The notes beneath the pieces are model-generated. The model was not told the origin of the DNA. It worked only from the letters and a program-made list of their open reading frames with translations, and searched no databases. The position numbers and the translations under genes are program-made. From Saccharomonospora piscinae (GTDB taxonomy: Bacteria > Actinomycetota > Actinomycetes > Mycobacteriales > Pseudonocardiaceae), in contig NZ_VCEK01000004.1 of NCBI RefSeq assembly GCF_005862235.1, positions 571,869-635,868 on the forward strand: a stretch of DNA of 64,000 nucleotides, written 5' to 3'. Positions 1,016 through 31,172 of the stretch are shown here, piece by piece. Positions within the stretch are counted from its first letter, which is position 1, and each line of letters begins with the position of its first letter.

Positions 1016-1060
1016 AAGGGGTTTCGTAGGGGGGAGGCCCTGTCCGCAGTGCTGTTAGCT
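1016..1060 (+). promoter_or_regulatory. Putative AGGGG-repeat operator and promoter of AHBA synthase
   Basis: AAGGGG (1016-1021) and TAGGGG (1027-1032) form a direct repeat with a 5-bp gap (11-bp period). A -10-like TAGCTT starts at 1055, 22 bp after the second repeat. The same layout recurs before other genes of the cluster. A further copy, AGGGGTCTAGG, lies at 980-990. I infer an activator site covering the -35 region, probably bound by the cluster's LAL regulators. Confidence 0.55.
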
Positions 1061-1120
1061 TGGGTGCCGGCCGGCTCGTCGGATACCGGGCGGCCGTCGT
1101 AGCAGGAAAGGCTACCGATC

Positions 1121-2287
1121 ATGAGTGATGCTTTGTCGCGGCCGCTGGACCTGCCAGCATGGCCGCAGTTCGACGACGCCGAGCGCGCCGGGCTGCTTCG
1201 TGCGCTCGACCAGGGTCAGTGGTGGCGAATGGGCGGCAGTGAGGTCGATTCGTTCGAGAGCGAGTTCGCCGACCACCACGGGGCGCCGCACGCGCTCGCG
1301 GTCACGAACGGCACGCACGCCCTCGAACTGGCGCTGCAGGTGCTGGGCGTCGAACCGGGCTCCGAGGTCATCGTGCCCGCCTTCACCTTCATCTCCTCGT
1401 CGCAGGCCGCGCAACGGCTCGGCGCGGTCGCGGTCCCCGTCGACGTCGACCTCGACACGTACTGCATCGACGTCGAGGCCACCTCGGCCGCGGTGACCTC
1501 CAAGACCGCCGCGATCATGCCGGTTCACATGGCGGGGCAGATGTCCGACATGGACGCTCTGGCGAAGCTCTCGGCCGATTCCGGTGTGCCGCTGCTGCAG
1601 GACGCGGCCCACGCTCACGGCGCGCGGTGGCGCGGCAAGCGCGTGGGCGAACTCGGCTCGGTCGCCGCTTTCAGCTTCCAGAACGGCAAGCTGATGACAG
1701 CGGGTGAGGGCGGTGCCGTCACCTTCCCGGACGCCGAACTGCACGAGATGGCCTTCCTGCGGCACAGCTGTGGCCGTCCGCGCACCGACCGGCTCTACAA
1801 GCACCGCGTCGCGGGCTCCAACTTCCGGATCAACGAGTTCTCCGCGAGCGTGCTGCGGGCGCAGCTGGCCCGGCTCGACGACCAGATCGAGACGCGCGAG
1901 GCGCGGAGCAAGGTGCTGAGCGGGTTGCTCGCCGACGTCCCCGGTGTCGAACCGCAGGGTCGCGACGAGCGGTGCGACCGCATGTCGCACTACATGGCGA
2001 TGTTCCGGATTCCCGGTGCGACCGAGGAACGCCGCAACGCCGTCGTGGACGCCCTCGTCGCGCGCGGCGTCCCCGCCTTCACCGGGTTCCGTGCGGTGTA
2101 CCGGTGCGACGCGTTCTGGGAGACGTCGGCACCGGCCGAATCCGTCGAGGCGATCGCGCAGCGGTGCCCGAACTCCGAGACCCTGCACGCCGAGTGTGTG
2201 TGGCTGCACCACCGCACCCTGCTGGGTACGGAGGATCAGATGCACACGGTCGCCGAGATCATCTCCGACGTGGTGGCCAGCTCCTGA
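1121..2287 (+). CDS. rifK: 3-amino-5-hydroxybenzoic acid (AHBA) synthase, RifK type
   Basis: This 388-residue PLP enzyme of the DegT/DnrJ/EryC1 aminotransferase family is almost collinear with RifK of the rifamycin cluster, as I recall it. Landmarks are QGQWWRMGG (residues 31-39), AVTNGTHALELALQV, VPAFTFISSSQAAQRLGAV, LLQDAAHAHGARW and SFQNGKLMTAGEGG, in which Lys190 is the expected Schiff-base lysine, and LRHSCGRPRTDR. In the RifK family the enzyme aromatises 5-amino-5-deoxy-3-dehydroshikimate to AHBA. With RifL it is also reported to form UDP-kanosamine by transamination. The ATG is preceded by AGGAAAGG. It is transcribed alone, away from the carboxylase gene, and is followed by a strong terminator hairpin. 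It is the diagnostic gene for the AHBA starter and defines the cluster as ansamycin (or related) type. Confidence 0.97.
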   Translation: MSDALSRPLDLPAWPQFDDAERAGLLRALDQGQWWRMGGSEVDSFESEFADHHGAPHALAVTNGTHALELALQVLGVEPGSEVIVPAFTFISSSQAAQRLGAVAVPVDVDLDTYCIDVEATSAAVTSKTAAIMPVHMAGQMSDMDALAKLSADSGVPLLQDAAHAHGARWRGKRVGELGSVAAFSFQNGKLMTAGEGGAVTFPDAELHEMAFLRHSCGRPRTDRLYKHRVAGSNFRINEFSASVLRAQLARLDDQIETREARSKVLSGLLADVPGVEPQGRDERCDRMSHYMAMFRIPGATEERRNAVVDALVARGVPAFTGFRAVYRCDAFWETSAPAESVEAIAQRCPNSETLHAECVWLHHRTLLGTEDQMHTVAEIISDVVASS

Positions 2288-2294
2288 GAACCCC

Positions 2295-2335
2295 GGTCAC
2301 GGGTGGGTGGCGTTGCTCGGCGCCCACCCGTGACC
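2295..2335. terminator. Strong hairpin between convergent genes
   Basis: GGTCACGGGTGGG (2295-2307) pairs perfectly with CCCACCCGTGACC (2323-2335): a 13-bp stem with a 15-nt loop. It starts 7 bp after the AHBA synthase stop and overlaps the last codons of the leftward gene ending at 2297. There is no T-tract, as is common in actinomycetes. It is probably a bidirectional terminator. Confidence 0.75.
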
Positions 2336-2875
2336 ACAACGGACGGTCGGTTTCGGCTCACCGGACGTCGCGAGTGCGGCACGGAGGGCTCCGGCGCCGA
2401 CCGCGCTCGCCGCCGCCGGGATCGCGAGTACCCGGTGCGCCTCCCGCACGTGGGTGAACAACACATAGCCAAGCGGTGCGGTGCCCGCTGTCCGGCTGGA
2501 TCGAGCGAAGTCGGCGACCTCGTCGTAGTAGCGCAGCCAGGACCCCGTCAGCCGGGTGCGGCCTTGGACGTCGTGAACGACCCGGCCCGCCGTGCCCGCC
2601 TCCGCCGCCGAGCGCGTCGCCAACGCCACCCGCTCGGCTGGCCGCATACCTCTGGTCCAGTGCCTCCAGCAGTGAAAGAGAAATTCCCGCCGATCCGCCC
2701 GGGATACCTGGGCGAGGACACACCACAGGTGGGTCACGGGCAGCGCGATCGACGCACCGGCCCGCCCGGTGTCACCCGGCGCCGTCTCCGCCGCGAGCCG
2801 GGCGAGCGCGTGCGTCAGGTCGGCTGGGTCCGTGTGCGCCGGGAGTACGGCGGCCACTGCCCTGACACCTGCCAT
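2297..2875 (-). CDS. Hypothetical protein, 192 aa
   Basis: I do not recognise this family. The translation is a plausible soluble protein with no signal peptide and no obvious membrane helix. It has an alanine-rich N-terminal stretch that looks helical (AVAAVLPAHTDPADL), a central aromatic cluster (FLFHCWRHWTRG), and GSWLRYYDEVADFARSS further on. The ATG at 2875 has a GAGG about nine bases upstream, and third positions are GC-rich as expected for a real actinomycete gene. The overlapping forward frame (2303-3016) gives a low-complexity arginine-rich product and is rejected. The gene converges on AHBA synthase and its last codons form one arm of the shared terminator. It is divergent from the YceI gene. 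Its function is unknown, and cluster membership is suggested only by position. Confidence 0.62.
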   Translation of the reverse strand: MAGVRAVAAVLPAHTDPADLTHALARLAAETAPGDTGRAGASIALPVTHLWCVLAQVSRADRREFLFHCWRHWTRGMRPAERVALATRSAAEAGTAGRVVHDVQGRTRLTGSWLRYYDEVADFARSSRTAGTAPLGYVLFTHVREAHRVLAIPAAASAVGAGALRAALATSGEPKPTVRCGHGWAPSNATHP

Positions 2876-2971
2876 GTGCTTCTACCTCGGATCAGCTCGC
2901 CTTGGGGACGGCATCCATCATCGGGCAAGCACGCCGGTTCGCGGCCAGGTCGCTGGGATACTGGGAGGCTT

Positions 2972-3018
2972 GAGGGGACCGGTAGGGGTTCGGCCGGTCG
3001 CGGGCGGGTCGCCTGACT
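2972..3018 (+). promoter_or_regulatory. Putative AGGGG-repeat operator upstream of yceI
   Basis: GAGGGG (2972-2977) and TAGGGG (2983-2988) form a direct repeat with the same 5-bp gap as upstream of AHBA synthase and the rifL-rifM fusion. The -10 is weaker: CTGACT at 3013-3018 fits the usual 24-bp distance. Another -10-like TATGCT lies at 3046-3051. This ties the YceI/NAD(P)-binding pair to the cluster's regulation. The operator call is inference. Confidence 0.45.
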
Positions 3019-3082
3019 CGCACAAGCCGTAGGTCGCGTGAATGCTATGCTCCGGGCTGCCAGCTATTGGAGGTGAGCACGA

Positions 3083-3613
3083 ATGAGTGCTGTTGGCGGT
3101 GGAGACCTCGGCGGGCAGCAGATCGGCTGCGGTGTTTACACCATCGATCCCGAGCGGTCGACGATCTCGTTCCAGACCAGAGCGATGTTCGGGCTCATGG
3201 GGGTACGCGGCACCTTCGGCGTCGGCGGCGGCAAGATCACGGTGGCTGATCCGGTGGAAGAGTCCACTGCGGAGGCCACGGTGTCGGCCGAAGCGTTCTC
3301 GAGCGGCAACGCCAAGCGCGATGAGCACGTCCGTTCCGGGGACTACCTCGATGCCAAGAACCATCCGCACTTCTCCTTCGTCGGCGAGAGCTTCGAGTGG
3401 TCCGGTGATCACGGAACGCTTCGTGGCCAGCTGACCGTCAAGGAGGTCAAGCAGCCGGTGACGCTGGACGTCACGACGGTGTCCGGCGACGAGCAGAACC
3501 TCACCGCCCGTGCCACCACGACCATCGACCGCTTCGACTTCGGCGTCAAGACAGCGCCGGGTATGACCGGCCGTAAGCTGAACATCGTGCTGGACATCGT
3601 CGCGAGCCGCTGA
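3083..3613 (+). CDS. YceI family protein
   Basis: The 176-residue product shows the YceI lipocalin-like pattern: YTIDPERSTISFQTRAMFG near the start, a central RDEHVRSGDYLDAKNHPHFSF, GQLTVKEVKQPVTLDV, and a C-terminal DRFDFGVKTAPG. YceI proteins bind long hydrophobic or isoprenoid ligands in a beta-barrel. In actinomycetes many are cytoplasmic and of unknown role, and no signal peptide is visible here. The ATG follows a strong GGAGGTGAG site. The gene is preceded by an AGGGG repeat like those of the biosynthetic genes, and is followed after 102 bp by an NAD(P)-binding protein on the same strand, so the two may be co-transcribed. Holding a hydrophobic intermediate is possible but speculative. 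Confidence 0.9.
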   Translation: MSAVGGGDLGGQQIGCGVYTIDPERSTISFQTRAMFGLMGVRGTFGVGGGKITVADPVEESTAEATVSAEAFSSGNAKRDEHVRSGDYLDAKNHPHFSFVGESFEWSGDHGTLRGQLTVKEVKQPVTLDVTTVSGDEQNLTARATTTIDRFDFGVKTAPGMTGRKLNIVLDIVASR

Positions 3614-3715
3614 CCCCGGTTCGCCGGAGCACACCCCTATCCTGGTCCGCAGCCGTGGTCTCGTGCCGCGTCGCTCCGGTACGGTCGGCCGAAGTCGGCC
3701 GTCAGGAGTGGGGTA

Positions 3716-5714: not shown

Positions 5715-5801
5715 GCGTACACCTCACAAAGCTCGGGGTGCGGCCAACGGTAGTCGGCGTGGCGCCTCGCACGGCACGGTGTCGTGCGGTGAGGGGGAGA
5801 T

Positions 5802-5847
5802 AAGGGGTTCCTGAGGGGAAACCGGCCGCGCGGTCCGGCGGTAGCGT
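5802..5847 (+). promoter_or_regulatory. Putative AGGGG-repeat operator and promoter of the rifL-rifM fusion
   Basis: AAGGGG (5802-5807) and GAGGGG (5813-5818) repeat with an 11-bp period. TAGCGT (5842-5847) follows after 23 bp as a -10 candidate. The arrangement is nearly the same as that before AHBA synthase. It lies in the divergent region shared with rifJ-rifN, but is oriented toward the fusion gene. Confidence 0.55.
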
Positions 5848-5909
5848 CGCCGGCGACCGGTCCGGCAGCGGTCGTCGGATTCCTTCGTCCCCTCTGGAGT
5901 GTAGTGATC

Positions 5910-7649
5910 ATGAGTGGTGAACGTGCGTCCGCTGCGCCCGTGCGTACCGCGGTCGTCGGACTCGGCTGGGCCGCGAAGTCGATCTGGCTGCCGAGGTTGC
6001 GGGCGCATCCCGGCTTCGTGATCACCGCGGTCGTGGACTCCCGCCCAGCCGAGGGCGACGAGCTGGACGGTCTCGACGTGCCACGCTACGAGGACGCCGC
6101 GGCGCTGGACCCGGCCGAGGTCGACCTCGCGATCGTGGCGGTGCCCAACCGCCTCCACGCCGAGGTCGGGGCTCGCCTGCTGCAGCGGGGCATCTCGGTC
6201 TTTCTGGAGAAGCCGGTCTGCCTCAGCTCGGACGAGGCCGAGCGGCTCGCCGCCGCGGAGCGGGCAGGCAGTGGGCGGCTGCTCGCCGGCAGCGCCGCGA
6301 GGTACCGCTCGGACGTGCGAGCGCTGGCCGAGGTGATCGGCTCGCTCGGCCGCATCCGGCACGTCGACCTGGCGTGGGTTCGGGCCCGGGGCGTGCCCGA
6401 CGTGGGCGGCTGGTTCACGCGCCGGCAGCACTCCGGTGGCGGGGCACTGGTCGACCTTGGCTGGCACCTGCTGGACCTGGTGCCCACCCTGCTCGGCCCG
6501 ACCACCTTCGCCCAGGTCGTGGGAACGATCTCCGACGATCACGTCAACGACCCGTCGTCGGGCACCGCGTGGCGTGACAACGGCCGTGACACCGCGGCGG
6601 CGGAGTCCGCCGACGTCGAGGACACGGCGCGCGGCTTCCTCGTGACCGCCGGCGGGGTCTCGGTCTCGATCCGCGCGAGCTGGCGTTCGCACGAGCAGCT
6701 CGACACGACGACGATCACCATCGACGGCAGCGCGGGCACGGCGAGGCTGGCCTGCACCTTCGGCTTCAGTCCGAACCGCGCGGGAGGCCCGATGCTGACG
6801 GTGACGCGCGACGGCGAACCCACCTCGGTGCCCGTGCCGGAGGAGACGATCGGTGGCGAGTACGACACCCAGCTCGACGAACTGGTCGGCGAGCTGACGG
6901 ACCCGGCGGCGCGAGGCCGCGCCGTGCGGGACGCGCGCGCGACGATCGGGGTCATCGAGCGGCTCTACGAATCGGCGCGGACGGGAGCGGAGCTGCCCGG
7001 CGAGGACGTCCGCGCCGTGGTGTTCGATCTCGACGGCGTGCTCGTCGACAGCACCGACGTGATGCGCCGCGCCTTCCGCACCGCCTACGCCGAGGTCGTC
7101 GGCGAGGGCGAGGCGCCGTTCGCGGAGTACAACAAGCACCTCGGCCGGTACTTCCCGGACATCATGCGGATCATGGGGCTGCCGCTGGAGATGGAGGAAC
7201 CGTTCGTCCGGGAGAGCTACCGGCTGGCCGGGCAGGTGCCGATGTTCGACGGCGTACCCGAGCTGCTGGCCGAGCTGCGCGATCGTGGTGTCGTGATGGC
7301 GGTGGCCACCGGTAAGAGCGGGCCGCGTGCCCGGTCGTTGCTCGAACTGCTCGGGGTGCTGCCGTTGTTCGACTACGTGATCGGCTCCGACGAGGTGGCC
7401 CACCCCAAGCCCGCACCCGACATCGTCGAGCTGGCCCTGCAGAAACTCGGCGTCCGCGCCGAGGATGCGATCATGGTCGGCGACGCGGTCACCGACCTGG
7501 AGAGCGCGCGGGGGGCGGGCGTGCGAGCGGTCGCCGCGCTGTGGGGCGAGTCGGACGCCGCGGCGCTGCGCGCGGCCGGTCCCGACCTGGCGCTGACCGA
7601 CCCGTCGGAACTGCTCCGGCTCTGCCCTCCCGTGGCCGCGCGGGCCTGA
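5910..7649 (+). CDS. Fused RifL-type oxidoreductase and RifM-type HAD phosphatase
   Basis: One uninterrupted frame of 579 residues holds two enzymes that are separate proteins (RifL and RifM) in the rifamycin cluster. Residues 1 to about 350 are a Gfo/Idh/MocA oxidoreductase: the Rossmann start AVVGLGWAAKSIWLPRL, the diagnostic EKPVCLSSDEAERL, and GALVDLGWHLLDLV. Residues from about 367 are a HAD phosphatase: VVFDLDGVLVDS with nucleophile Asp373, ATGKSG, HPKPAPD and VGDAVTD. In the AHBA pathway RifL is reported to oxidise UDP-glucose to the 3-keto sugar aminated by RifK. RifM is thought to release or dephosphorylate kanosamine. I chose the ATG at 5910, 10 bp after GGAG. GTG at 5904 is possible. 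PKS A begins 127 bp downstream with its own operator copy. Confidence 0.92.
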   Translation: MSGERASAAPVRTAVVGLGWAAKSIWLPRLRAHPGFVITAVVDSRPAEGDELDGLDVPRYEDAAALDPAEVDLAIVAVPNRLHAEVGARLLQRGISVFLEKPVCLSSDEAERLAAAERAGSGRLLAGSAARYRSDVRALAEVIGSLGRIRHVDLAWVRARGVPDVGGWFTRRQHSGGGALVDLGWHLLDLVPTLLGPTTFAQVVGTISDDHVNDPSSGTAWRDNGRDTAAAESADVEDTARGFLVTAGGVSVSIRASWRSHEQLDTTTITIDGSAGTARLACTFGFSPNRAGGPMLTVTRDGEPTSVPVPEETIGGEYDTQLDELVGELTDPAARGRAVRDARATIGVIERLYESARTGAELPGEDVRAVVFDLDGVLVDSTDVMRRAFRTAYAEVVGEGEAPFAEYNKHLGRYFPDIMRIMGLPLEMEEPFVRESYRLAGQVPMFDGVPELLAELRDRGVVMAVATGKSGPRARSLLELLGVLPLFDYVIGSDEVAHPKPAPDIVELALQKLGVRAEDAIMVGDAVTDLESARGAGVRAVAALWGESDAAALRAAGPDLALTDPSELLRLCPPVAARA

Positions 7650-7682
7650 CCGACCCGGACGAGCGCGCGCCAACGCGAAAGT

Positions 7683-7738
7683 TAGGGAGTCCTAGGGGCA
7701 TGGCAGGGGTTAGGCCCGAGCCCGGTGACGAGCAGACT
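7683..7738 (+). promoter_or_regulatory. Putative AGGGG-repeat operator and promoter of PKS A
   Basis: Three copies stand in a row: TAGGGA (7683-7688), TAGGGG (7693-7698) and CAGGGG (7704-7709). The last two have the standard 5-bp gap. CAGACT (7733-7738) lies 23 bp beyond the last copy, where the other promoters have TAGNNT. The gap between the fusion gene and PKS A holds nothing else. The ribosome site before the ATG at 7777 is weak (GGGTGTGGTGG). Confidence 0.5.
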
Positions 7739-7776: not shown

Positions 7777-10700
7777 ATGCTGCGTACCGAGCTGATCAGG
7801 CCGCTGCCGGAGCTGCTGCGGGAGCACGCCGAGCGCATGGGCGACAAGGTCGCGTTCCGCGACAGGGCGCGCAGCGTCTCCTACGCGGAGCTGGAGCGGC
7901 GGACCCGGCGGATTGCGGGCCACCTCGTCGGGCTCCGGCTGCAGCCCGGCGACCGCGCCGCGATCTATCTCGGCAACCGCGTCGAGATGGTGGAGAGCTA
8001 CTTCGCGATCCTGCGCGCGGGCGCGATCGGCGTCCCGCTCAACCCCCGGGTCAGCGAGGCCGAGCTCGCCTACCTGCTCGACGACAGCGGTGCGCGGGTC
8101 GTCGTCACCGATCCCGCCCACGTCGCCAAGCTGGCGAACGTCCTCGGCGAGCGCACCGACGTGTCCATCGTGGTCACCGGTGGTGAGGGCCTCCCCGCCG
8201 AGGCTCCCCACGGCACGAAGCTCTTCGAGTCGATGGCCACCGTCGAGCCAGCCACCCCCGCGCGCGACGATCTCGGCCTGGACGACGTGGCCTGGATGCT
8301 CTACACGTCGGGAACCACCGGCAAGCCCAAGGGCGTGCTGTCGACCCAGCGCAACTGCCTGTGGTCGGCCGCGGCGTGCTACGTGCCGGTGCCGGGCCTG
8401 TCGGCCGACGACCGCGTCGTGTGGCCGCTGCCGCTGTTCCACAGCTTGTCGCACATCGCCTGCGTGGTGTCGGTGACGGCCGTGGGCGCGACCGCGAGGA
8501 TCGTCGAGGGGTTCGCCGCCGACGAGGTGCTCGCCGCGATCGAGCAGGACTCCGCGACGTTCCTCGCGGGTGTGCCCACGATGTACCACTACCTCGTGCG
8601 GGCCGCGCGGGACAGCGGATTCCGCGCGCCGCACCTGCGCATGTGCCTCGTCGGCGGCGCGATCACGACGGCGGCGCTGCGGAGGTCCTTCGAGGAGGTC
8701 TTCTCGGCGCCGCTGCTCGACGCCTACGGCAGCACGGAGACGTGCGGGTCGATCACGATCAACTGGCCGAGCGGCGGCGGGGGCGAGGGCTCGTGCGGGC
8801 TTCCGGTGCCGGGGCTCGGCGTGCGCGTGGTCGATCCGGAAACCGGGATCGACGTGCCCTTCGACGTCGAGGGGGAGGTGTGGGTACGCGGTCCGAGCGT
8901 GATGGTCGGTTACCACAACCAACCCGAGATCACCGCCGAGGTGCTGCAGGACGGCTGGTACCGCACGGGTGACCTCGCCACGCGCGACGAGGCCGGTTAC
9001 TTCACCGTCACGGGGCGGATCAAGGAACTGATCATCCGGGGCGGGGAGAACATCCACCCCGGCGAGGTGGAGGACGTGCTGCGGCAGCTGCCGGACGTCG
9101 CGGACGTCGCCGTGGTCGGCAAGCCCCACGAGGTGCTCGGTGAGGTTCCGGTCGCGTTCCTGGTGCCCGGTCCCTCGGGGCTGGACCCCGCACGGCTGTT
9201 CGCCGCCTGCCACGAACAGCTGTCGCCGTTCAAGGTTCCCGAGGAGCTGTACGAGATCGCCCGCGTGCCTCGCACGCCGTCGGGCAAGATCATGCGCCAT
9301 GTCCTGACGCAGCAACCCGCGCGGCTGCGTGCGTCGGCCGGTGGCCAGTTCGACTCGCTGTTCCGGCTCGACTGGGTGCCGATGCCCACCCTCGGAGCGC
9401 CCGCGAGCGAGCAGGCACCCGAGGTCGCGGTCCTGCGACCGAGGGGGACGGTGCCGCACGAGGTGTTCGAGCTGGCCCGTGAGCTGCCCGCGACGACCCG
9501 GATCGTGGTGGCCACCGAACGCGCGATCGCCGCGAGCCCCGACGAGGACGTCCCGAACCTCGACGAGGCCGGAGTGTGGGGCTGGGCGCGCAGCGTGCAG
9601 CACGACCTCCCGGACCGCGTGGTGCTGGCCGACCTCGACACCGGCGAGGACGACGAAGCGACCGGCGCGGCCCTGGCGCAGGCGGTCGCAGCGGGTGCCA
9701 CCCAGTTCGCCGTGCGTTCCGGCACGGTGCTGCTGCCCGAGCTGGTCCGCGCGGCGGCACACGGCACCGGTACCACGTTCGACCCCCGGCGCACCGTCGT
9801 CATCACCGGTGCGGACGGCGCGGTCGCCGCGGTCGTGGCCCGTCACCTCGTCGCGTGTCACGGCGTCTGGCACTTCCTGCTGCTCAGTCACGGCGGGCAG
9901 GACGATCCGAGCGCTGTCGCGTTGCGCACCGAGCTGACCCGGCTCGGCGCGAGGGCGACGCTGCTGGCGTGTGACGTGGCCGACCGGTCGGCGCTGTCCT
10001 CGGTACTCGCCGCGACCAAGCGCCCACTGACGGCTGTGGTCCACACCGGGGAGCCTCCCGGCGGTTCCCGGGGCACGACGCGCGAGGACGCCATCGCCGC
10101 CGCGTGGAACCTGCACGAGCTGACCGGCACCGAGGATCTGGCGGCGTTCGTGCTGTTCTCGCCCGCGGCCGGGGTGCTCGGCGCGCCGGGCTCGTACGAC
10201 GCCGCGGCCGTGGCGTCGTACCTGGACGGACTCGCCCATCGCAGGCGGGCGGCGGGGCTGCCCGCGCTGACGCTGTCGTGGGGCCCGTGGGAAGCCGGCG
10301 GCACGGCCGGGGCTCTGCCCGCTCTGCCCGGCGTCGCGACGTTGCCCACCACGGACGGCCTCGCGATGCTGGACGCCGCGCTGACCGTCGACCGCGCGCT
10401 GCTGGTCGCGATGCGACTCGACACCGACGGGCTGCGGGCGGGGGAGGTCGCGGCGCCCCTGCGCGGGCTCGTCGACGCGGGCAGCGAGCCGGGCACTCCC
10501 GACGAGACCACCGAAGCGGCGCTGCGGGACCGCCTCGCGGAGCTGTCGCGGCCCGACTGCCACCGCGAGCTGCTCGAGATCGTGTGCGCCGAAACCGCTC
10601 GCGTCACCGGGCTCGATCGCATCGATCCGGGCGTCGCGTTCACCGACCTCGGCCTGACGTCGCTGGGTGTCGTCCGGCTCCGCAACGGCCTGACCAACAG

Positions 10701-10790
10701 CACCGGCCTGCGCCTGCCCGTCACGCTCGCGTACGACCATCCGACCCCCGACGCCGCCGCGGGCGAGCTCGCTTCCCTGCTGTTCGGCGG
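7777..10790 (+). other. PKS A loading module: CoA ligase, inactive KR, ACP0
   Basis: The adenylation domain shows [14 protein letters not shown] (about residue 174), [24 protein letters not shown] and the C-terminal [12 protein letters not shown] with its catalytic lysine. It activates an aryl acid, here AHBA by context, and loads it on ACP0 (GLTSLG, Ser962). Between them lies a KR-like fold. In place of the usual FSS...YAAAN catalytic region it reads [24 protein letters not shown] in two pieces, so Ser, Tyr and Asn are all lost. A dead KR is also known in the RifA loading module. Confidence 0.9.
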
Positions 10791-20616: not shown

Positions 20617-20629
20617 GAGGAGTGGCCGC

Positions 20630-23183: not shown

Positions 23184-23206
23184 TACCGCCGACGGTAAGG
23201 GTGGCA

Positions 23207-23261
23207 TCAGGGCTCGCGCCCCGCAGATAGGGGTTGACCGCAGGGCTTTGCTGGGTAGCGT
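23207..23261 (+). promoter_or_regulatory. Promoter of the thioesterase-LAL1 operon with AGGGG boxes
   Basis: GATAGGGGTT (23226-23235) lies 22 bp before a -10 candidate TAGCGT (23256-23261). A -35-like TTGACC (23234-23239) gives a 16-bp spacer. Weaker CAGGGC copies sit at 23208-23213 and 23241-23246. TAGCGT is identical to the -10 of the rifL-rifM fusion. If it is an operator, LAL1 would control its own operon. Confidence 0.5.
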
Positions 23262-23349: not shown

Positions 23350-24111
23350 GTGAGCGCCACCAATATCGACGAAGGACTGTGGCTGCGCCGGTTCCAGAAA
23401 GCCGAGCCGGGAGCCGTGCGGCTGCTGTGCCTGCCACACGCGGGTGGTTCGGCCAGCTTCTTCTTTCCCGTCGCGCGTGCGCTGTCGCCGGGGGTCGACG
23501 TGGCGGCGGTGCAGTACCCGGGCAGGCAGGACCGGAGGCAGGAGCCGTTCGCGGACAGTGTCCCCGAGCTGGCGAAAATGATCTTCGATGTGCTCGCCGG
23601 ATCGCTCGCCACGCCGACCGCGTTGTTCGGCCACAGCCTCGGGGCGAGTGTGGGTTTCGAGCTGGCACGGCTGATGGAGGCCGAGGGAGCCGGGCCCGTG
23701 CGGCTGTTCGCCTCCGGCCGCCGAGCACCGTCGAAGCACCGCGACGAGAGCGTGCACCAACTCGACGACGAGGGCCTGCTCGCCGACGTACGCAGCCTGA
23801 GCGGTACGGACTCGCGGGTCTTCGACGACGACGAGCTCGTGCGCATGGCCCTGCCCGCCATCCGCGCCGACTACCGGATCGCCGAAACCTACACCTACAC
23901 GCCGGGCGCGCCGCTGACGTGCCCGATCACGGTGTTCACCGGGGACGCGGACCAGAAGACGACGCACGACGAAGCGCAGGCGTGGCGCGAGCACACCACC
24001 GGCGACTTCGAGCTCAATACGTTTCCGGGGGGCCATTTCTTCCTCGCCACGAACCAGAGCAAGGTTCTCGACCGGTTGTCGGCGAGCCTCGACGGGGCGG
24101 GGGCGATTTGA
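23350..24111 (+). CDS. Type II thioesterase (RifR type)
   Basis: The 253-residue alpha/beta hydrolase is a discrete editing thioesterase that removes wrongly primed or stalled acyl groups from PKS carrier proteins, as RifR does in rifamycin synthesis. The catalytic triad is visible: Ser96 in GHSLG, Asp199 in FTGDADQKT, and His229 in GGHFF. The N-terminal LLCLPHAGGSASFFFPVARAL is family-typical. The GTG start at 23350 follows GGGAGG by eleven bases. The longer frame from 23248 only adds translated promoter sequence. It is followed after 33 bp by the LAL1 regulator, so the two form an operon under an AGGGG-box promoter. It is a repair enzyme and not the chain-releasing step, which in ansamycins is an amide synthase. 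Confidence 0.95.
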   Translation: MSATNIDEGLWLRRFQKAEPGAVRLLCLPHAGGSASFFFPVARALSPGVDVAAVQYPGRQDRRQEPFADSVPELAKMIFDVLAGSLATPTALFGHSLGASVGFELARLMEAEGAGPVRLFASGRRAPSKHRDESVHQLDDEGLLADVRSLSGTDSRVFDDDELVRMALPAIRADYRIAETYTYTPGAPLTCPITVFTGDADQKTTHDEAQAWREHTTGDFELNTFPGGHFFLATNQSKVLDRLSASLDGAGAI

Positions 24112-24144: not shown

Positions 24145-26886
24145 GTGAGTCTGGTCGATCGTGACGAGCAGGTGCGTGCTCTCGACCATTTCCTCGCCGA
24201 ATCCGCGGCGGGCCGTGGGGCCGTGGTCTCGCTCGAGGGGCCGGTCGCGTGTGGCCGCACCGCACTGCTGCGCACCTTCTGCCGCCGAGCCGAGGCGTCC
24301 GGGGCGCTGGTGCTGAGCGCCACCTGCTCGGGAACGGAGCGGGAGCTGCCGTTCGCGGCGTTGCGCCAGCTCCTGCACCATCCCGACGTGCCGAGGGAAC
24401 TCGCGCGCCTGCCACAGGTGGGAGCGCCGGCAGGCGAGGTGACGCCCGAACTGGCCCTGACGCTGCACACGGTATGGCACGGCGTGCGCGAGCTCGCGAC
24501 CGAGCGCCCGGTCGTGCTCGCGGTCGACAACATCGCCAGCGCCGATCCCGTGACGCAGCGGTGCCTGCTCTACCTCGCGGGAAGGCTCGAGGTAGCGCCC
24601 GTGTTGCTGGTGCTCACCGACGACGTCGAGTCGTCGCGCACGCACCTGCGCTTTCGTGCCGAGTTACTCGGTCAGGCCGGTTTCCACCGGCTCCGGTTCG
24701 GCCCGCTTTCCCCCTGCGGCGTGGGGGAACTGCTCGCCCGCCGGTGGGAACGCTCCACCGTGGCGAGGCTGGCGCCGGAGCTGCATCGCCTGAGCGGCGG
24801 CAACCCGCTGTTGGTGCAGGCACTCGCCGACGACTACGACGCCACCGGCGCCGAGCGAGCCGACGGTTACGGCCTCGCGGTGCTGAGCCTGTCGCAGCGC
24901 GGCGAACCGCCCGCGCCGAGGGTGGTCGCCGGTCTCGCCGTACTCGGTGACGATGCGGAACCGGGACTGGTCGCCGACCTGATCGGCGCCGATGCCGACG
25001 AGGTGGGCCGATCGATCCGGGCCATGACGGCAGCGGGGCTTCTCGCCGAGGGCACGCTGCCACATCCGGTCGCGCGGAGGGCGGTGCTCGACGCGATGCC
25101 CTCCGACGAGCGTGCCGAGCTGCACCGGGCCGCGGGCTCCGTTCGCCATGCCCACGGTGCGCAGGCGACAGCGGTGGCGCGCCACCTGGTCGACGCCGGT
25201 TCGCTCGACGGCGACCGGCGTAGGGGTAGCGACGGCTGGGCGATCGAGGTGCTGACCGACGCCGCCGAATCGGCGACGGCCGGGGGTGACCTCTCCTTCG
25301 CGGTGGCGTGCCTGCGGCTGGCCCACGAGACGGAAGCGGGTGGCACGCTGACGGCGTCGCTGCTGGCGAGGCTGGTCGACGCGGAGTGGCGGCTCAACCC
25401 GGCGAGGGCGGCTTCGCACCTGTCCCGGCTGGTCACCGTGACCCTGGCCGGTGAACTCGGCCTCGCGGACGGGCTCGACGTCGTGCGCCGGTTGCTGTGG
25501 CACGGGCGTGATGAGGAGGCGAGAAAGGTGCTGGACGGCATTCGGTCCGGCGCCGTGCCCTCCTCGGACGCGGGCCGGTTGCGGCAGTTCGAGACGTGGC
25601 TGACACTGGCGCACCCCAGGATGGCCGACCGGGACCGGCGCGTGCCCGCGCAGCGCGAGGTGCCTGCCGCGAGCGGTGCGACCGACACCTGGCTGAGCAC
25701 GGCCGCGACCATGATCGAGCTGCTGGCCGCGGGCCGGGAGGCGGAGGCGGCCGACAGCGCCGAACGGTGTCTCGCGGGCCTGCCTTTCCGCCAGCTCACC
25801 AGCTGGGCCGAGGAAGCGGCGGGGCTGGCGCTGCAGATCCTGGTGGCCGCCGACCGGCTGGCGGTGGCGAGGCTGTGGTGTCACCGGCTGCTCGACGACG
25901 TCCAGGCCGGCTCCGCCGTGACCTGGCGCGCGACACTCACGGCCGTGCTCGCGGACGTCGCCCTCCGCACGGGCGATCTCGCAGGCGCCGTCACGCACGG
26001 CACGGCTGCGCTTGCGGCGTTGCCACTCAAGGCATGGGGGGTGACCGCGGGGCTCCCGCTGAGCGTCCTCGTGCTGGCGGCGACGAGGCAGGGCGACTAC
26101 GCCGCCGTGACGGAACACCTCCGTGAGCCGGTCACGGGATCCGTGTTCGACAGCCGTTTCGGGCCGCGTTACCTGCATGCTCGTGGGAGCTACTACCTGG
26201 CTCTCGACAACGGGCACCGTGCGCTGGCCGACTTCCTGTCCTGCGGAGAGTTGCTCCGTGGCTGGGGTCTGGACTTCGCGAGCCTGGCACCGTGGCGGAC
26301 GAGCGCCGCGGAAGCCTGGCTGCGGGTCGGCAACCACGACCAGGCGCGACAACTCGCCTACGAGCAGGCCGCACGGCCGGACGCGAGGGGAGCCCGCACG
26401 CGGGCGCTGTCGTTGCGGATGCTGGCCGCGACCGGGCCCGCCGATCGCAGGCCCGAGCTGCTCACGGAGGCACTGGAGCTGCTCGAGCACTGCGGAGACC
26501 GGTACGAGCAGGCCCAAGTCCTGGCCGAGCTGAGTCACGGGCGCCATGCGCTCGGCCAGACCCGCCGTGCGCGGATGGCGTTTCGCCGGGCCTGGCATCT
26601 CGCCGAGACGGCGGGTGCGGCTCCGCTGATGCAGCGGCTGCTCAACGTCGAGGATCGCCCTGCCGCGGTGTCGGCGCCCCTGCGGGTGGGCACGGACGCC
26701 GCGTTGACGGCGTCGGAACACCGGGTCGCCTCACTCGCGGTACTCGGCTGTTCCAACCGCGAGATCGCTGGGAAGTTACATATTACGGTGAGCACTGTCG
26801 AACAACATCTCACGCGAATATATCGCAAGCTGAAGGTGAAGCGGCGCGATGATCTACCCGTCGAGTTGTGTTTGGGTGCTTCCTGA
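24145..26886 (+). CDS. LAL-family (large LuxR) transcriptional activator 1
   Basis: The 913-residue protein has an N-terminal AAA-type ATPase region and a C-terminal LuxR helix-turn-helix (REIAGKLHITVSTVEQHL, near residue 880). LAL proteins are pathway-specific activators of macrolide and ansamycin clusters, such as GdmRI and GdmRII. The Walker A motif reads GPVACGRT (32-39), with Arg38 in place of the usual lysine, so ATP binding may be weakened. The Walker B-like LAVDNI is present. The GTG start follows AAGGGAAC. Two TTA codons are present, at 24664-24666 and, within the HTH, at 26776-26778. Translation may therefore depend on the rare leucyl-tRNA bldA. The last 130 bp are AT-rich compared with the rest. 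It probably activates the AGGGG promoters with LAL2. Confidence 0.93.
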   Translation: MSLVDRDEQVRALDHFLAESAAGRGAVVSLEGPVACGRTALLRTFCRRAEASGALVLSATCSGTERELPFAALRQLLHHPDVPRELARLPQVGAPAGEVTPELALTLHTVWHGVRELATERPVVLAVDNIASADPVTQRCLLYLAGRLEVAPVLLVLTDDVESSRTHLRFRAELLGQAGFHRLRFGPLSPCGVGELLARRWERSTVARLAPELHRLSGGNPLLVQALADDYDATGAERADGYGLAVLSLSQRGEPPAPRVVAGLAVLGDDAEPGLVADLIGADADEVGRSIRAMTAAGLLAEGTLPHPVARRAVLDAMPSDERAELHRAAGSVRHAHGAQATAVARHLVDAGSLDGDRRRGSDGWAIEVLTDAAESATAGGDLSFAVACLRLAHETEAGGTLTASLLARLVDAEWRLNPARAASHLSRLVTVTLAGELGLADGLDVVRRLLWHGRDEEARKVLDGIRSGAVPSSDAGRLRQFETWLTLAHPRMADRDRRVPAQREVPAASGATDTWLSTAATMIELLAAGREAEAADSAERCLAGLPFRQLTSWAEEAAGLALQILVAADRLAVARLWCHRLLDDVQAGSAVTWRATLTAVLADVALRTGDLAGAVTHGTAALAALPLKAWGVTAGLPLSVLVLAATRQGDYAAVTEHLREPVTGSVFDSRFGPRYLHARGSYYLALDNGHRALADFLSCGELLRGWGLDFASLAPWRTSAAEAWLRVGNHDQARQLAYEQAARPDARGARTRALSLRMLAATGPADRRPELLTEALELLEHCGDRYEQAQVLAELSHGRHALGQTRRARMAFRRAWHLAETAGAAPLMQRLLNVEDRPAAVSAPLRVGTDAALTASEHRVASLAVLGCSNREIAGKLHITVSTVEQHLTRIYRKLKVKRRDDLPVELCLGAS

Positions 26887-27517
26887 TTCCTGTTGTTTCC
26901 GTGTTCGTTGTTTTTCTTAATTCGAGTTGAATATGCGCACCGTGAACGCTGTCGGCGGTGTCCTTTTCCGGCCATCGAGGCTCCGCTGCGACCACCGTTG
27001 GGCTCGAAGGTTGCCGCGTACCGTACTCCGGGCGCGAGCCGGCCCGGCCCCCGGGGTCCGCGTGGTCTCGACCCGGCGGGATCCACCTTGTCACGACACT
27101 CTGGACTCCCGCGTCGGCCATGTCGCCGTCTGTGTCCGGCTTCCAGAGCTGCGACGACGAGGTCACGTCGGCGCGGTGGCGCCGCGTTGGCGTCACGCGG
27201 CGGTACTCCCGGCGTAACGGATTACTCCGTTCGTCCCAATCACGGAATGTGTGTGTTTCGTTTCTTCAAGTGATCGTCCGATGTTGCAGGTCGGTGACCG
27301 CATTGTAATGCCGGAGCCCTTTTTTGGCTGTTGCCGGTGATTGCTTGCGGGTGTTGTGGGCGAGTGATAGCGTGCCGAACTGCAGGGCCGACTTCCTGTA
27401 GTTTCGGAGCATGCTGACAGGGTGGCTGCCTAGTCGGCTACATTTCCATGAATCGTGATGAACTATTCGTTGCCTGGTATTGTCCTGCGACGACGAACTG
27501 GGGTGAGGTGTGTAGTC
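26887..27517 (+). other. Long intergenic region between the two LAL genes
   Basis: About 630 bp without a credible gene. The first 60 bp are T-rich (Leu/Phe-rich frames, TTTTTCTTAATT), continuing the AT-rich end of LAL1. The middle (27000-27210) is GC-rich with short overlapping frames on both strands that look like noise. The last 250 bp are again AT-richer and hold a CCCTTTTTTGG run at 27318-27328 and the likely LAL2 promoter. I see no tRNA, transposon end or repeat. A decayed gene cannot be excluded. Confidence 0.6.
27345..27373 (+). promoter_or_regulatory. Candidate LAL2 promoter
   Basis: TTGCGG (27345-27350) and TAGCGT (27368-27373) are separated by 17 bp. TAGCGT is the same -10 as at the rifL-rifM and thioesterase promoters. 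No AGGGG box lies at the usual distance, so LAL2 may be controlled differently from the other units. Confidence 0.35.
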
Positions 27518-30409
27518 TTGCTGGTTGAGCGGAGGCGCGAGCTGGGGCTGCTGGACACGCTGTTCGCGGAGGCGGACGCGGGCCGGGGGCAGGTCGCTCT
27601 CGTCGACGGCGTGGTGGCGAGTGGAAAGACGGAGCTGCTGCGCACGTTCGCCGAGCAGCGCGGCGACGGGGTCGTGACCCTGGCGACGGGCGGGGCGCGA
27701 TCGCAGCGGTATCGCCCCTTCGGCAGTATCAGGCCGCTCGTGTCGGCGTTGCCGCTGGCGTCGTCGCGGACGGAGGCACTGCTCCGGCACCTCGACGGCC
27801 GCGACGGGAACGACCCCACCGCGTCGCACACCTTCGACGTCGCACACAGCTTGCTCCAGCTCGTGCTCGAAGTGTCGGAGAACGCTCCCCTCCTCATCAC
27901 CCTCGACGACGCGCAGCACATCGATGCGCAGTCCATGGAATGCGTGCTCCACATCGCCAACCACATCCGTTCGGCTCGCGTCATGCTGCTGCTGGCCGAG
28001 GCCGCGTACGGTGGCTCGATCAGCTCGGGCTACCGCATCGAGCTGATCCGCCAAGCGAACTTCCGCAGGCTGAGTCTGGCGCTGCTGTCGCCCGACGGCG
28101 TCAAGGAACTGCTCGAACAGCACGTGGATCCGAGCGTCGCGCACCAGCACGCGCCCGCCTGCCATGCGGTCAGTGCGGGCAACCCACTGCTGGTGCGGGC
28201 GCTGGTCGAGGACCAGCCGGACGAGCCGCACGCCATGTCCGTCGTCGGACCGCAACGGTCTCCGAGTGTCGGCGACACCTTCCGGCAGGCCGTGATGACC
28301 TGCCTCGAACGCAGTGGCCACGGCGTCGTCGACATCGCTCAAGCGATCGCCGTGCTCGGGCGCGACTGCACGGTCGACCGGGTGGGCTCGCTGCTGGGCC
28401 AGCGTTCGACGGAGGTCGAACGTGCCTTCCGTACCCTCCGCCTCGCGGGTTGTCTCGGCGAGCGTGAGTTCAAGGACTCGCTGTTCCGGCAGGCTGTGCT
28501 CGACAGCATCGAGCTGACCGAGCTCGCTCGGCTGCACCGGTCGGCGGCGTCGGTGATCCATGCCGCCGAAGCGGACATCGCCAGTGTCGCGGGGCATCTG
28601 GTGGCCGCGGGCGGCGTCCCGGACGAGTGGGCCGTGACCAGGTTGATCGAGGCGGCGGAGGCGGCCCTGCGCGCGGACGCCCCCGACCGCGCGATCGAGT
28701 ACCTCGAACACGCTCTGGCCGGTTGCGGCCACGATGCCACGGGCACCAAGCTGCGACTGCTCCTGCTGGGCGCGCACTGGCGTGCCAATCCCTCCCACGG
28801 CATCAGGCACGTGGCGAGGTTGAGCCCGCACCGGTACCGGGGTGAGCTGGACGTCGAACAGTCGGCGATTCTGCTGCGTCTCCTGCTCTGGGAGGGCCGG
28901 ATCCACGAAGTGCGGACCGTGCTCGACCGGCTCAGCGAGACGTGCCGGTCGGGCCAGGACACCGCAGGCGGTTCACTGGAGTACACCGGTGCCTGGCTGC
29001 GGCACACGTGCCCCGAACTCGCCGAGCGATGGGCCGAGCTGAACGGCGAGTCCGACACCGCGACCGAGCCCGAACCGTCCCCGGCGAGCTGGTGGACCAA
29101 GGCGTCGGTGGCGCTGCATGCCGTGCTCACCGGAACTCCCGACGGCTCGCCTGCCGCCAACGCCGAGAGCGTGCTGCAGGCGACGGCGCTGGGCGATCGC
29201 ACCATCGAGCCGGTGTGGCACGCACTGTGGACTTTGATCCACGCCGACCGCCTGGACAGTGCCCTCCAGTGGTGCGACCCCCTGCTCGCCGAGGCGAAGG
29301 CACGGAAAGCCACCTGGTGGGAGGCGATGTTCTCCGCCTGCCGGGCCGAGATCGCGTTGCGGTACGGCGAGCTGCCCGTCGCGGCCAGGTACGCGTCGCG
29401 TGCCCTCTCGATCGCCGGTACCGAGGGCTGGGGCATCGGCATCGGGCAGCCACTCAGTGTGCTGATGAACGTGGGCACGGCGACGGCCGATCACGACGCC
29501 GTGCAGGACCACCTGCGGCAGGACGTGCCCGCCGCGATGTTCCGTACCGGATACTGCCTGCCCTACCTGCGCGCCCGGGGCCGCTACTACCTGGCGAACG
29601 AGTGGTGGGACGCCGCACTGGAGGACTTCCAGCACTGCGGCGAGCTGACGGCCCAGTGGGGTTTCGAGGCTCCCGCGCTCGCGCCGTGGCGCACGGACGC
29701 CGCCGAGGTGTACCTGCGGCTCGGTGAACCGGCCCGTGCGCGCGAGCTGGCGGAGGAGCAACTGGACCGGGTCGGCAAGAGCAATCCCCGCGCACGCGGC
29801 GTCGCGTTGCGAATCATCGCGACCACCCTCGACGACGTCCCACGGCTGCGCCTGCTCAAGGACACGGTCGAGCTGCTGCAGGCCAGCGGGGACCGGCTGG
29901 AGCTGGCTCACGCGCTGTTCGAGTTGAGCAGGGCCCATCAGGCTCTCGGCCAGTCGGCCAAGGCCCGCATGGTCTCGCATCGCGGTAGCCGCCTGGTCCA
30001 GGCCTGCCGGATGGAGACCTCGTGTTCTGACGTCGAGCCCAGCGGCAAGGTCGCGGGCAGGGGGCGCAGCAGGTCGGTCGCGTCCGTCCCGTCCTCCGAG
30101 GCCGCGCGTCGGACGACCACGAAGCCGACCGCCCAGCTCACCCCGTCGGAACAACGGGTCGCGGCACTCGCCGCGGTCGGCTACACCAACCGGGAGATCT
30201 CGGCGCGGCTGCACATCACCGTGAGCACCGTCGAGCAGCACCTGACGAAGATCTTCCGCAAACTCCGGGTGACGCGCCGGACTGACCTGCCCGCGGACCT
30301 TCCGCTCGGTGTCGAGGAGCCGGGTAAGCCCAGCGTGAAGCCACTGCTCTCGCCGCCGACGATGCAGGTCGCCGTCAAGCGCCGGAGCATGACCGCCGAT
30401 ACCGCGTAA
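27518..30409 (+). CDS. LAL-family (large LuxR) transcriptional activator 2
   Basis: This is a paralogue of LAL1 with the same layout. It has an intact Walker A GVVASGKT (Lys37) and a Walker B-like LLITLDDAQ. Long TPR-like helical repeats fill the middle, and the C-terminal LuxR motif REISARLHITVSTVEQHL is almost the same as in LAL1. About 30 residues follow the HTH, which LAL1 lacks. A TTG start at 27518 is chosen because the protein then begins MLVERRREL, the usual LAL N-terminus, with GGTGAGG nine bases upstream. The ATG at 27455 would add about 20 unlike residues. With this start it is 963 residues long. It lacks TTA codons as far as I can see. It probably acts with LAL1 on shared operators. 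Confidence 0.92.
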   Translation: MLVERRRELGLLDTLFAEADAGRGQVALVDGVVASGKTELLRTFAEQRGDGVVTLATGGARSQRYRPFGSIRPLVSALPLASSRTEALLRHLDGRDGNDPTASHTFDVAHSLLQLVLEVSENAPLLITLDDAQHIDAQSMECVLHIANHIRSARVMLLLAEAAYGGSISSGYRIELIRQANFRRLSLALLSPDGVKELLEQHVDPSVAHQHAPACHAVSAGNPLLVRALVEDQPDEPHAMSVVGPQRSPSVGDTFRQAVMTCLERSGHGVVDIAQAIAVLGRDCTVDRVGSLLGQRSTEVERAFRTLRLAGCLGEREFKDSLFRQAVLDSIELTELARLHRSAASVIHAAEADIASVAGHLVAAGGVPDEWAVTRLIEAAEAALRADAPDRAIEYLEHALAGCGHDATGTKLRLLLLGAHWRANPSHGIRHVARLSPHRYRGELDVEQSAILLRLLLWEGRIHEVRTVLDRLSETCRSGQDTAGGSLEYTGAWLRHTCPELAERWAELNGESDTATEPEPSPASWWTKASVALHAVLTGTPDGSPAANAESVLQATALGDRTIEPVWHALWTLIHADRLDSALQWCDPLLAEAKARKATWWEAMFSACRAEIALRYGELPVAARYASRALSIAGTEGWGIGIGQPLSVLMNVGTATADHDAVQDHLRQDVPAAMFRTGYCLPYLRARGRYYLANEWWDAALEDFQHCGELTAQWGFEAPALAPWRTDAAEVYLRLGEPARARELAEEQLDRVGKSNPRARGVALRIIATTLDDVPRLRLLKDTVELLQASGDRLELAHALFELSRAHQALGQSAKARMVSHRGSRLVQACRMETSCSDVEPSGKVAGRGRSRSVASVPSSEAARRTTTKPTAQLTPSEQRVAALAAVGYTNREISARLHITVSTVEQHLTKIFRKLRVTRRTDLPADLPLGVEEPGKPSVKPLLSPPTMQVAVKRRSMTADTA

Positions 30410-30447
30410 CGGCCGGCCCCCGGTACAGTGTGCGGCGGAGGTGGGCG

Positions 30448-31101
30448 GTGACTGAAGTCGAGGACCGGAAAGCTTCTGGCCGGAGTGGGCGTGCCGACCT
30501 GATCTGGATGGTGGTCCTCGACGTCGCCATCCCGCTCGCGAGCTTCTACGGCCTCCGCGCCGCGGGCGTGAATCAGTGGCTCGCGCTCGTGATCAGCGGT
30601 GCGCTGCCGGGGGTGCGGCTGGTGTACCAGCTGGTCCGCAGGCGCCGGCTGGAGATGCTGGCTCTGTTCTCGCTGAGCATCGTGATCGCGGGCACCGCCA
30701 TCGCGTTCCTCACGCACGACCCCAGGCTCATCCTCGCGCGGGAAAGTTACATTACTCTCCTGATAGGACTCTGGATTCTCGTCACGCTGCTGGGGCGGCA
30801 TCCGTTCATCTACACGGCCACGATGCGCGTGATGCCGGACGAGGATGCCGCGCAGTGGCGCCGGGAATGGCAGGAGAGTGCGCAGTTCCGGCGGGCGATG
30901 CGCGTCATCACCGCGTTGTGGGGCATCTCGTTTCTCATCGACGCCGCCGCCCGGGTCGTGATGGCCTACACCTTACCCGTGGATCTCGTGCCCGTGCTGA
31001 GCATGCTGCTGATCCTGGTGATGTTGACGCTCGTCGTCATCGGGAGCAAGGCGTACGCACGTCGCCAGACCCGTCGTGCCCAGGAGCGCGCGCAGGACTG
31101 A
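30448..31101 (+). CDS. Six-helix membrane protein, VC0807-like
   Basis: The 217-residue product has six predicted membrane helices: starting at LIWMVVLDVAIPLASFYG, ALVISGALPGVRLVYQLV, MLALFSLSIVIAGTAIAF, YITLLIGLWILVTLLG, ALWGISFLIDAAARVV and LSMLLILVMLTLVVIG. There is a conserved-looking HPFIYTATMR after the fourth. This resembles the VC0807 / intracellular-septation-like membrane family of unknown function, often found in actinomycete secondary metabolite clusters. It is not a recognisable transporter. The GTG start at 30448 has GGAGG six bases upstream. A TTA codon lies at 30973-30975. It sits 38 bp after LAL2 and is likely co-transcribed with it. A role in export or self-protection is only a guess. 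Confidence 0.85.
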   Translation: MTEVEDRKASGRSGRADLIWMVVLDVAIPLASFYGLRAAGVNQWLALVISGALPGVRLVYQLVRRRRLEMLALFSLSIVIAGTAIAFLTHDPRLILARESYITLLIGLWILVTLLGRHPFIYTATMRVMPDEDAAQWRREWQESAQFRRAMRVITALWGISFLIDAAARVVMAYTLPVDLVPVLSMLLILVMLTLVVIGSKAYARRQTRRAQERAQD

Positions 31102-31115
31102 GCCGCGCGGCACGA

Positions 31116-31172
31116 CAGGGGCACGGGGCGGGCCCCTAGGGGTTGCTCGCGGTGTCGGGGCCGCCGTAGGTT
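31116..31172 (+). promoter_or_regulatory. Putative AGGGG-repeat operator and promoter of the PKS B-C-D operon
   Basis: CAGGGG (31116-31121) and TAGGGG (31137-31142) are separated by 21 bp, about two turns, where other sites use one turn. The second copy is part of a perfect palindrome CCCCTAGGGG (31133-31142). A -10 candidate TAGGTT (31167-31172) follows after 24 bp. The promoter would drive PKS B, C and D, which are separated by only 43 and 57 bp. Confidence 0.5.

Follow-up and report, generated by a model that had tools for sequence, protein, structure and literature searches.

AGGGG direct repeats before the promoters of a Saccharomonospora piscinae polyketide cluster: a candidate operator for LAL activators

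INTRODUCTION

Type I polyketide clusters are often under the control of large ATP-binding regulators of the LuxR family (LALs). Here we describe short AGGGG direct repeats in a cluster of Saccharomonospora piscinae that combines genes for 3-amino-5-hydroxybenzoic acid (AHBA) with type I polyketide synthases (PKSs). The stretch of DNA analyzed is called the window and is 64,000 nucleotides long (RefSeq assembly GCF_005862235.1, contig NZ_VCEK01000004.1, here C6, positions 571869-635868). The anatomy of the repeats, their spacing rule, their distance to the -10 box, their conservation, and their links to PKS and LAL genes were observed directly. From these comparisons we infer that the repeats are probably the operator of the cluster-situated LAL activators, chiefly LAL1. 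These are MalT-like ATPases with a C-terminal LuxR-type helix-turn-helix (HTH).

A close counterpart is MalT of Escherichia coli. In the available text of one source, its box GGGGA(T/G)GAGG is G-rich and asymmetric and overlaps the -35 element (PMC7567727). The accessible part of another source describes several MalT sites per promoter and cooperative promoter binding once the protein has oligomerized (PMC10427625). The system described here is similar in having a candidate regulator of the same architecture, a G-rich site by the -35 element, and multiple sites. It differs in that AGGGG alone is repeated, in head-to-tail arrays with a 10-12 bp period, and in that the arrays are in PKS clusters. 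By eye, no copy at the six operators in the window continues as GGGGA(T/G)GAGG (core GGA(T/G)GA flanked by GG). The repeats would therefore work like MalT sites without being MalT boxes. The proposed MalT site of Actinoplanes sp. SE50/110, as given in the same available text, overlaps the -35 element at 17 starts, all within a single large region under common regulation (PMC7567727). It shares with our case a MalT-like LuxR regulator and the overlap with the -35 element. It is a palindrome (TCATCC-5nt-GGATGA) rather than a set of direct repeats, and its region is not a PKS cluster.

Activators of PKS clusters are the other close relatives. In the accessible parts of the sources, the milA4-E and milF promoters are direct targets of MilR (PMC5015266), and RifZ, of the LuxR family, is the pathway-specific activator of the rifamycin cluster (PMC5787919, PMC8788734). 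RifZ is thus also an activator of an AHBA/PKS cluster, and its motif may or may not be AGGGG. PikD, RapH, FkbN, AveR, MilR, and GdmRI/II resemble LAL1 and LAL2 in being large ATPase-LuxR proteins in PKS clusters that activate structural genes. Their available descriptions differ from ours in that they give no AGGGG operator or spacing rule. Asm8 is another cluster-situated LAL activator. The heptamers of Streptomyces antibiotic regulatory proteins (SARPs) and of PimR (SARP-LAL) are likewise direct repeats upstream of cluster promoters. They have another half-site, are read by another DNA-binding domain, and end nearer the -10 box.

LALs have been called poorly studied in the available part of one source (PMC3282765), and in that of another, no predictable consensus was found for one LAL (PMC9628970). 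A LAL activator of a PKS cluster is a known kind of regulator. The AGGGG direct-repeat operator with its spacing rule is new within the literature searched. We did not find it in that open literature; the footprints of RifZ, AveR, NemR, and SlnR lie outside it, so an earlier description is possible.

RESULTS AND DISCUSSION

Operators and candidate promoters in the window

Six of about 10 units of the cluster bear the operator, as counted by reading of the map. All six arrays, their -10 candidates, and their putative target genes are on the plus strand. The exact pattern AGGGG-N6-AGGGG occurs in the window at 1017, 2973, 5792, 5803, and 7694, always on that strand. The form AGGGG-N4-8-AGGGG gives 5 matches in the window with 0.60 expected, and 0 of 100 shuffles reached 5.

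The rifK operator is at 1016..1032. It contains AAGGGG-N5-TAGGGG with an 11-bp period. The candidate -10 box is TAGCTT at 1056..1061. The target (1121..2287) encodes an AHBA synthase-like aminotransferase of the DegT/DnrJ family, as identified by family scan.

The yceI operator is at 2972..2988 and is an NAGGGG pair. The candidate -10 box, CTGACT at 3013..3018, is weak. The target (3083..3613) encodes a YceI-family protein by family scan.

The operator of the rifL-rifM fusion is at 5791..5818. It contains three AGGGG copies, at 5792, 5803, and 5814, with an 11-bp period. The candidate -10 box is TAGCGT at 5842..5847. The target (5904..7649) encodes an oxidoreductase-HAD phosphatase fusion that is RifL-RifM-like by domain order.

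The PKS A operator is at 7684..7709. It contains a weaker AGGGA copy at 7684 and AGGGG at 7694 and 7705. The candidate -10 box is CAGACT at 7733..7738. The target (7777..20616) encodes a type I PKS with an AMP-ligase loading module, of which the first 1408 residues were scanned.

The thioesterase-LAL1 operator is at 23198..23233. It contains TAGGGG at 23228-23233 and the weak copies AGGGT at 23198 and AGGGC at 23209. The candidate -10 box is TAGCGT at 23256..23261. The target (23350..24111) encodes a thioesterase (PF00975). The LAL1 gene begins 33 bp downstream of the thioesterase gene, so this operator probably drives LAL1 too.

The PKS B operator is at 31116..31142. It contains CAGGGG and TAGGGG, with AGGGG at 31117 and 31138 and a 21-bp period. 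The candidate -10 box is TAGGTT at 31167..31172. The target (31361..41683) encodes a type I PKS, of which the first 1280 residues were scanned. The thioesterase and PKS B have looser versions of the operator than the other four units.

A sequence-only reading of this DNA had placed four NAGGGG pairs at 1016-1032, 2972-2988, 5802-5818, and 7693-7709, and all four positions were correct. The variant spacings that it gave for the thioesterase and PKS B, including the 21-bp period, were also found. It had put the last strong copy 22-24 bp before the -10 box. At all six promoters, we found 22-24 nt between the end of the proximal AGGGG and the box it named; these boxes were chosen by eye. The spacers are 23, 24, 23, 23, 22, and 24 nt for rifK, yceI, rifL-M, PKS A, the thioesterase, and PKS B, respectively. 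A sigma-70 scan of 900-8000 found 0 promoters and says little, since only 0.2 were expected by chance.

A constant distance upstream of a -10-like box could also mean that an alternative sigma factor recognizes AGGGG as its -35 element. We consider this very improbable. The usual spacer between -35 and -10 elements is 16-19 nt, and the 22-26 nt seen in the arrays is too long for such a pair. Nor would a -35 element be expected to come in two or three helically phased copies.

Spacing rule in AHBA loci of relatives

Of 390 family genomes, 38 had AHBA synthase genes. The pair AGGG(G/T)-N6-AGGG(G/T) was found in 9 of 29 fetched AHBA loci (own locus not counted). A larger comparison set consisted of 80 named AHBA loci of 202 relatives, with 1.52 Mb in total. 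It contained 41, 40, and 55 AGGGG pairs at gaps of 5, 6, and 7, respectively, and 0-6 pairs at gaps of 1-4 and 8-14. A second rise was found at gaps of 15-18 (8, 10, 24, and 18 pairs), and a third AGGGG was between the two in 32 of 52 pairs at gaps of 16-18. Control pairs of GGGGA numbered 1-14 over gaps of 1-24.

The 80 loci contained 99 arrays in 52 loci, 62 with two copies and 37 with three. Arrays at least 70% alike downstream were dropped, which left 77 nonredundant arrays. In 37 of the 77, a TANNNT hexamer starts 23-26 nt past the last AGGGG. With a second -10 form, NA(G/C)ACT, which was added after inspection of the arrays, a box starts 22-26 nt downstream in 52 of the 77; the other 5-nt bins hold 0, 1, 0, 0, 3, 1, and 0. 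This second form is that of the PKS A box, and it recurs at 22-24 nt in AHBA loci. The period of the arrays varies (10, 11, or 12 bp), and the distance to the -10 box stays within about 5 nt.

The constant distance to the -10 box that the sequence-only reading had proposed held in these 77 arrays. Together with the gap specificity in the 80 loci and the conservation in a second genus (below), it strongly supports a putative activator abutting the -35 region at a shared operator. The idea of one shared repeat stood for the six units. Its period is 10-12 bp rather than fixed, and this cluster is not alone in having the operator.

Sister cluster in a second genus

A sister cluster is found in a genome of another genus (G004). 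It is 84% identical to the window for rifK, 64% for LAL1, and 58% for LAL2. The AGGGG copies and the -10 box are conserved there at five of the six units (rifK, rifL-M, PKS A, the thioesterase, and PKS B), and the flanks drift. The 16-mer of the rifK operator precedes rifK letter for letter, with the same spacer to the -10 box. The rifL-M triple array and the TAGGGG of the thioesterase are kept. At PKS A, the gap is one base longer, and the box reads AAGACT. PKS B is preceded by AGGGG-N16-AGGGG, with TAGGTT at 23 nt; these were read outside the promoter alignment, in which the PKS B stretch starts past its AGGGG. The promoter-by-promoter alignment covered G004 alone and is therefore one comparison rather than a tree-wide test.

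Candidate regulators and mechanism

LAL1 (24145..26886, plus strand) has 913 aa and is the probable activator. It encodes an N-terminal AAA domain and a C-terminal LuxR/GerE HTH. LAL2 (27455..30409, plus strand) has 984 aa as listed, with a start possibly near 27518, and is the second candidate, also with an AAA domain and a LuxR HTH. PF13191 (AAA_16) scores above its cut-off in both proteins. The PF00196 HTH covers residues 853-904 in LAL1 and 894-945 in LAL2. The LALs are the only regulators recognized among the scanned proteins of the first 31 kb; ORF 2297-2875 and rifJ were unscanned, and no search was aimed at SARP genes. Along with the clade of LAL1 and the operators near LALs elsewhere, this supports the LALs indirectly as the likely binders.

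In the LAL tree, 23 AHBA-linked LALs including LAL1 form one group with support of 100/100; the group labels were set by hand, and one member (L128) was called AHBA although its AHBA gene is on another contig. LAL2 and its counterpart in G004 fall among LALs of other PKS loci. Its place in the AHBA-linked clade makes LAL1 the first candidate for the AHBA operators, and it appears to be a better candidate than LAL2. A LAL1 homologue was found 2.4-4.2 kb from the AHBA gene in 7 of 9 other genomes searched; in G004 the distance is about 23 kb, and in G212 the homologue is on another contig. Arrays were present in 11 of 14 AHBA loci with a LAL within 10 kb and in 41 of the 66 remaining loci.

LAL2 or a third LAL (C6:785294) may read the array instead of LAL1 or together with it, a possibility that we regard as rather doubtful. 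The HTH segment STVEQHLT was found in 18 of 18 extracted LALs, including LAL2 and the third LAL; the extraction pattern itself included T(V/I)E(Q/F)HL, and 1 of 19 loci was missed. The shared segment fits one half-site for many LALs, and PKS loci without AHBA genes but with other LALs bear the same kind of operator. The Walker A motif of LAL2, GVVASGKT, fits GxxxxGK(S/T). That of LAL1, GPVACGRT, has Arg for Lys, as do those of its G004 orthologue and of L065 and L075; the search pattern was unmatched in 5 of 38 LALs. LAL1 may handle ATP differently. In MilR, replacement of the Walker A Lys by Ala abolishes function, according to the available part of the source (PMC5015266). The AHBA arrays nevertheless accompany the LAL1 clade, and LAL2 and its G004 partner group elsewhere.

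An activated LAL would oligomerize through its ATPase domain and occupy an array of 2-4 AGGGG half-sites in the same orientation. A spacing of 10-12 bp, or of 21-23 bp for two turns, would put successive HTHs on one face of the helix. The proximal half-site would be at about -40 to -36, counted from the candidate -10 box, directly beside a poor or missing -35 element. From there, the bound LAL might contact the alpha subunit and region 4 of sigma, for a class II-like activation such as that of MalT. It would co-induce AHBA supply (rifK and rifL-M), PKS A, PKS B, yceI, and the thioesterase-LAL1 unit. Induction of the last would amount to positive autoregulation.

Arrays beyond AHBA clusters

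A second array begins at C6:797992 (L172, 15831-15882) in the genome of S. piscinae. Its four AGGGG copies are about 200 bp upstream of a PKS that, like PKS A, opens with an AMP-ligase module; the array is some 225 kb downstream of the window's arrays. No -10 box is evident by eye at 22-26 nt. The third LAL is about 10 kb from this array. Another PKS group (C8:199704-215222) has no AGGGG pair at gaps of 5-7 on its contig and no LAL1 homologue at E values up to 1e-60. The C6 array with a LAL and the C8 group without either make a single contrast.

The repeat plus -10 pattern, AGGGG-N5-7-AGGGG-N22-24-TAGNNT, gave 152 matches in 90 of the 390 family genomes. A control with the wrong spacing (gap of 12-14) gave 31 matches in 31 of the 390. 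Of these 31 matches, one conserved sequence accounts for 15 and true triple arrays for 3, and another 3 appear to be mutual orthologues. The conserved sequence belongs to one genus (g11), begins AGGGG(T/C)CCTCCGGCTCCGAGGGG, and is found in 15 genomes.

We picked 40 sites by hand, not at random, one per genome from the 90 matching genomes, and omitted sites known at AHBA synthase genes. Two of the genomes (G016 and G103) carry an AHBA gene on another contig, so the sites picked there may be part of AHBA clusters. As controls we used 13 of the 31 wrong-spacing matches and 7 arbitrary places, 20 in all. Some of the stretches fetched around the sites were at contig ends and shorter than 20 kb. A PKS ketosynthase (>150 bits) was within 10 kb at 30 of the 40 sites and at 0 of the 20 controls. 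In 13 of the 40 cases, a ketosynthase open frame on the site's own strand had its 5' end no more than 700 bp away.

There may be one code, with about even chances in our estimate, that a broad group of LALs uses across actinomycete type I PKS clusters. It would consist of 2-4 head-to-tail AGGGG copies with a 10-12 bp period, the last of them 22-26 nt before the -10 box. If so, LAL regulons, including those of silent clusters, would be readable from sequence. With a rule for half-site, period, and -10 distance, the operons under LAL control could be listed, orphan LALs could be matched to split or silent clusters, and promoters responsive to LALs could be built. The code would also predict cross-talk between the LALs of neighboring clusters, such as LAL1, LAL2, and the third LAL in a 230-kb PKS-rich stretch of one contig. 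What LALs bind would become a question that a single promoter and a single protein could answer experimentally.

Contrary results and other explanations

Several results weigh against an operator read by LALs. A LAL1-like gene (>100 bits) was within 10 kb at only 6 of the 40 picked sites (0 of 20 controls). By HTH profile, large LuxR-HTH frames (700 aa or more) were near 5 of the 40 sites and 1 of the 20 controls. Several sites have a small LuxR-HTH gene instead. The repeats could then be a real activator operator for a non-LAL protein, such as a SARP, a PAS-LuxR or other small LuxR protein, or a response regulator encoded elsewhere. We consider this unlikely. LuxR-HTH genes of any size were about as common near controls (6 of 20) as near sites (14 of 40), and LALs are the sole regulators recognized among the scanned proteins of the first 31 kb. 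SARP sites are direct repeats too, and they end about 8 nt before the -10 box, whereas the repeats here end 22-26 nt before it. PhoP sites are also 11-nt direct repeats in the available part of the source (PMC6784220). As identities for the AGGGG box, a -35 element of an alternative sigma factor, a SARP box, and a PhoP box were set aside on spacing and sequence.

Distances to LAL genes also speak against a non-LAL protein. They were taken in 20 genomes, half of the picked 40 and mostly with long contigs, for all 43 of their listed sites, AHBA-linked or not. LAL1 homologues at E values up to 1e-40 were within 5 kb of 8 sites (0.15 expected), within 50 kb of 28 (1.17 expected), and within 100 kb of 35 (2.31 expected), where the expectation assumes even placement. 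The farthest of the sites is up to 1.5 Mb from a LAL. At least one operator was within 100 kb of a LAL in 20 of 20 genomes. PKS clusters are home to operators and LALs alike, so this nearness is an association that may follow from that.

Further weak points and contrary results are as follows. In the window, no AGGGG pair at gaps of 4-8 was found before the minus-strand units (the carboxyltransferase, ORF 2297-2875, and the ROK-family gene with rifJ). No AGGGG pair was found in the long region upstream of LAL2. CAGACT of PKS A and CTGACT of yceI, two of the six -10 candidates, are poor boxes. In G004, the yceI repeat is conserved, and CTGACT is not. No array was found in 28 of the 80 AHBA loci, many of them from Frankia, and 3 of the 14 loci with a LAL within 10 kb are among these 28. 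Two other AHBA neighborhoods (L159 and L160), fetched as possible rif-type clusters and not identified as such, contained no pair at gaps of 1-21. For one LAL of Streptomyces coelicolor, the footprints were on palindromes rather than direct repeats, as given in the accessible part of the source (PMC9628970).

Frankia AHBA loci (L043, L044, L048, L052, and others) contain no AGGGG arrays and no LAL match in the fetched stretch. They may therefore be regulated differently.

A further group of contrary results would fit chance repeats of G-rich DNA. With one mismatch allowed, the N6 form adds no site in the window, and the 5 found do not exceed the 5.85 expected; the signal therefore resides in the exact copies. 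In the 4.9-Mb genome of S. piscinae, there are 8 exact N6 matches, 5 of them inside the window, and 7 of the mirrored pattern. At gaps of 5-7, there are 19 matches, 5 inside the window and 2 in the second array on C6, and 30 mirrored matches. Across the family, the mirrored repeat plus -10 pattern gave 76 matches in 70 of the 390 genomes. Across the class, the repeat plus -10 pattern gave 15 matches in 11 of 178 genomes (own included) and the mirrored pattern 20 by our count, which is no excess. Outside the own genome, 5 of the 13 class matches are beside a PKS (four in G461 and one in G501) and 8 are not.

The sequence-only reading would have fallen if the motif were equally frequent elsewhere. 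This is so for the bare AGGGG pair, which is not enriched genome-wide. What is enriched is its concentration in the cluster, on one strand, and before genes, and the claim therefore rests on position and comparison. The repeat plus -10 pattern is enriched about 5-fold over the wrong spacing, and only 2-fold over the mirrored control, and its matches adjoin PKS genes. With these two ratios, a share of the 152 family matches must be chance. As an account of the repeats as a whole, chance is hardly credible. They are concentrated before cluster genes on the coding strand, and the gap specificity, the -10 distance, the conservation, the wrong-spacing control, and the nearness to PKS genes all argue against it.

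Genome G461 belongs to another family of the class. Its four repeat plus -10 matches are on contigs C10, C32, C113, and C141 (L264-L267). Each is just before a PKS frame, and one is near a LAL.

Other genes and surroundings of the cluster

ORF 30448 gave no family in the family scan. The family scans also identified an FAD enzyme and a methyltransferase in the cluster. The window is part of a very large type I PKS region at 572-802 kb of C6. In this region, ketosynthases follow one another with few interruptions between 582 and 753 kb and recur at 801 kb, by the contig end; one open frame has 13084 codons.

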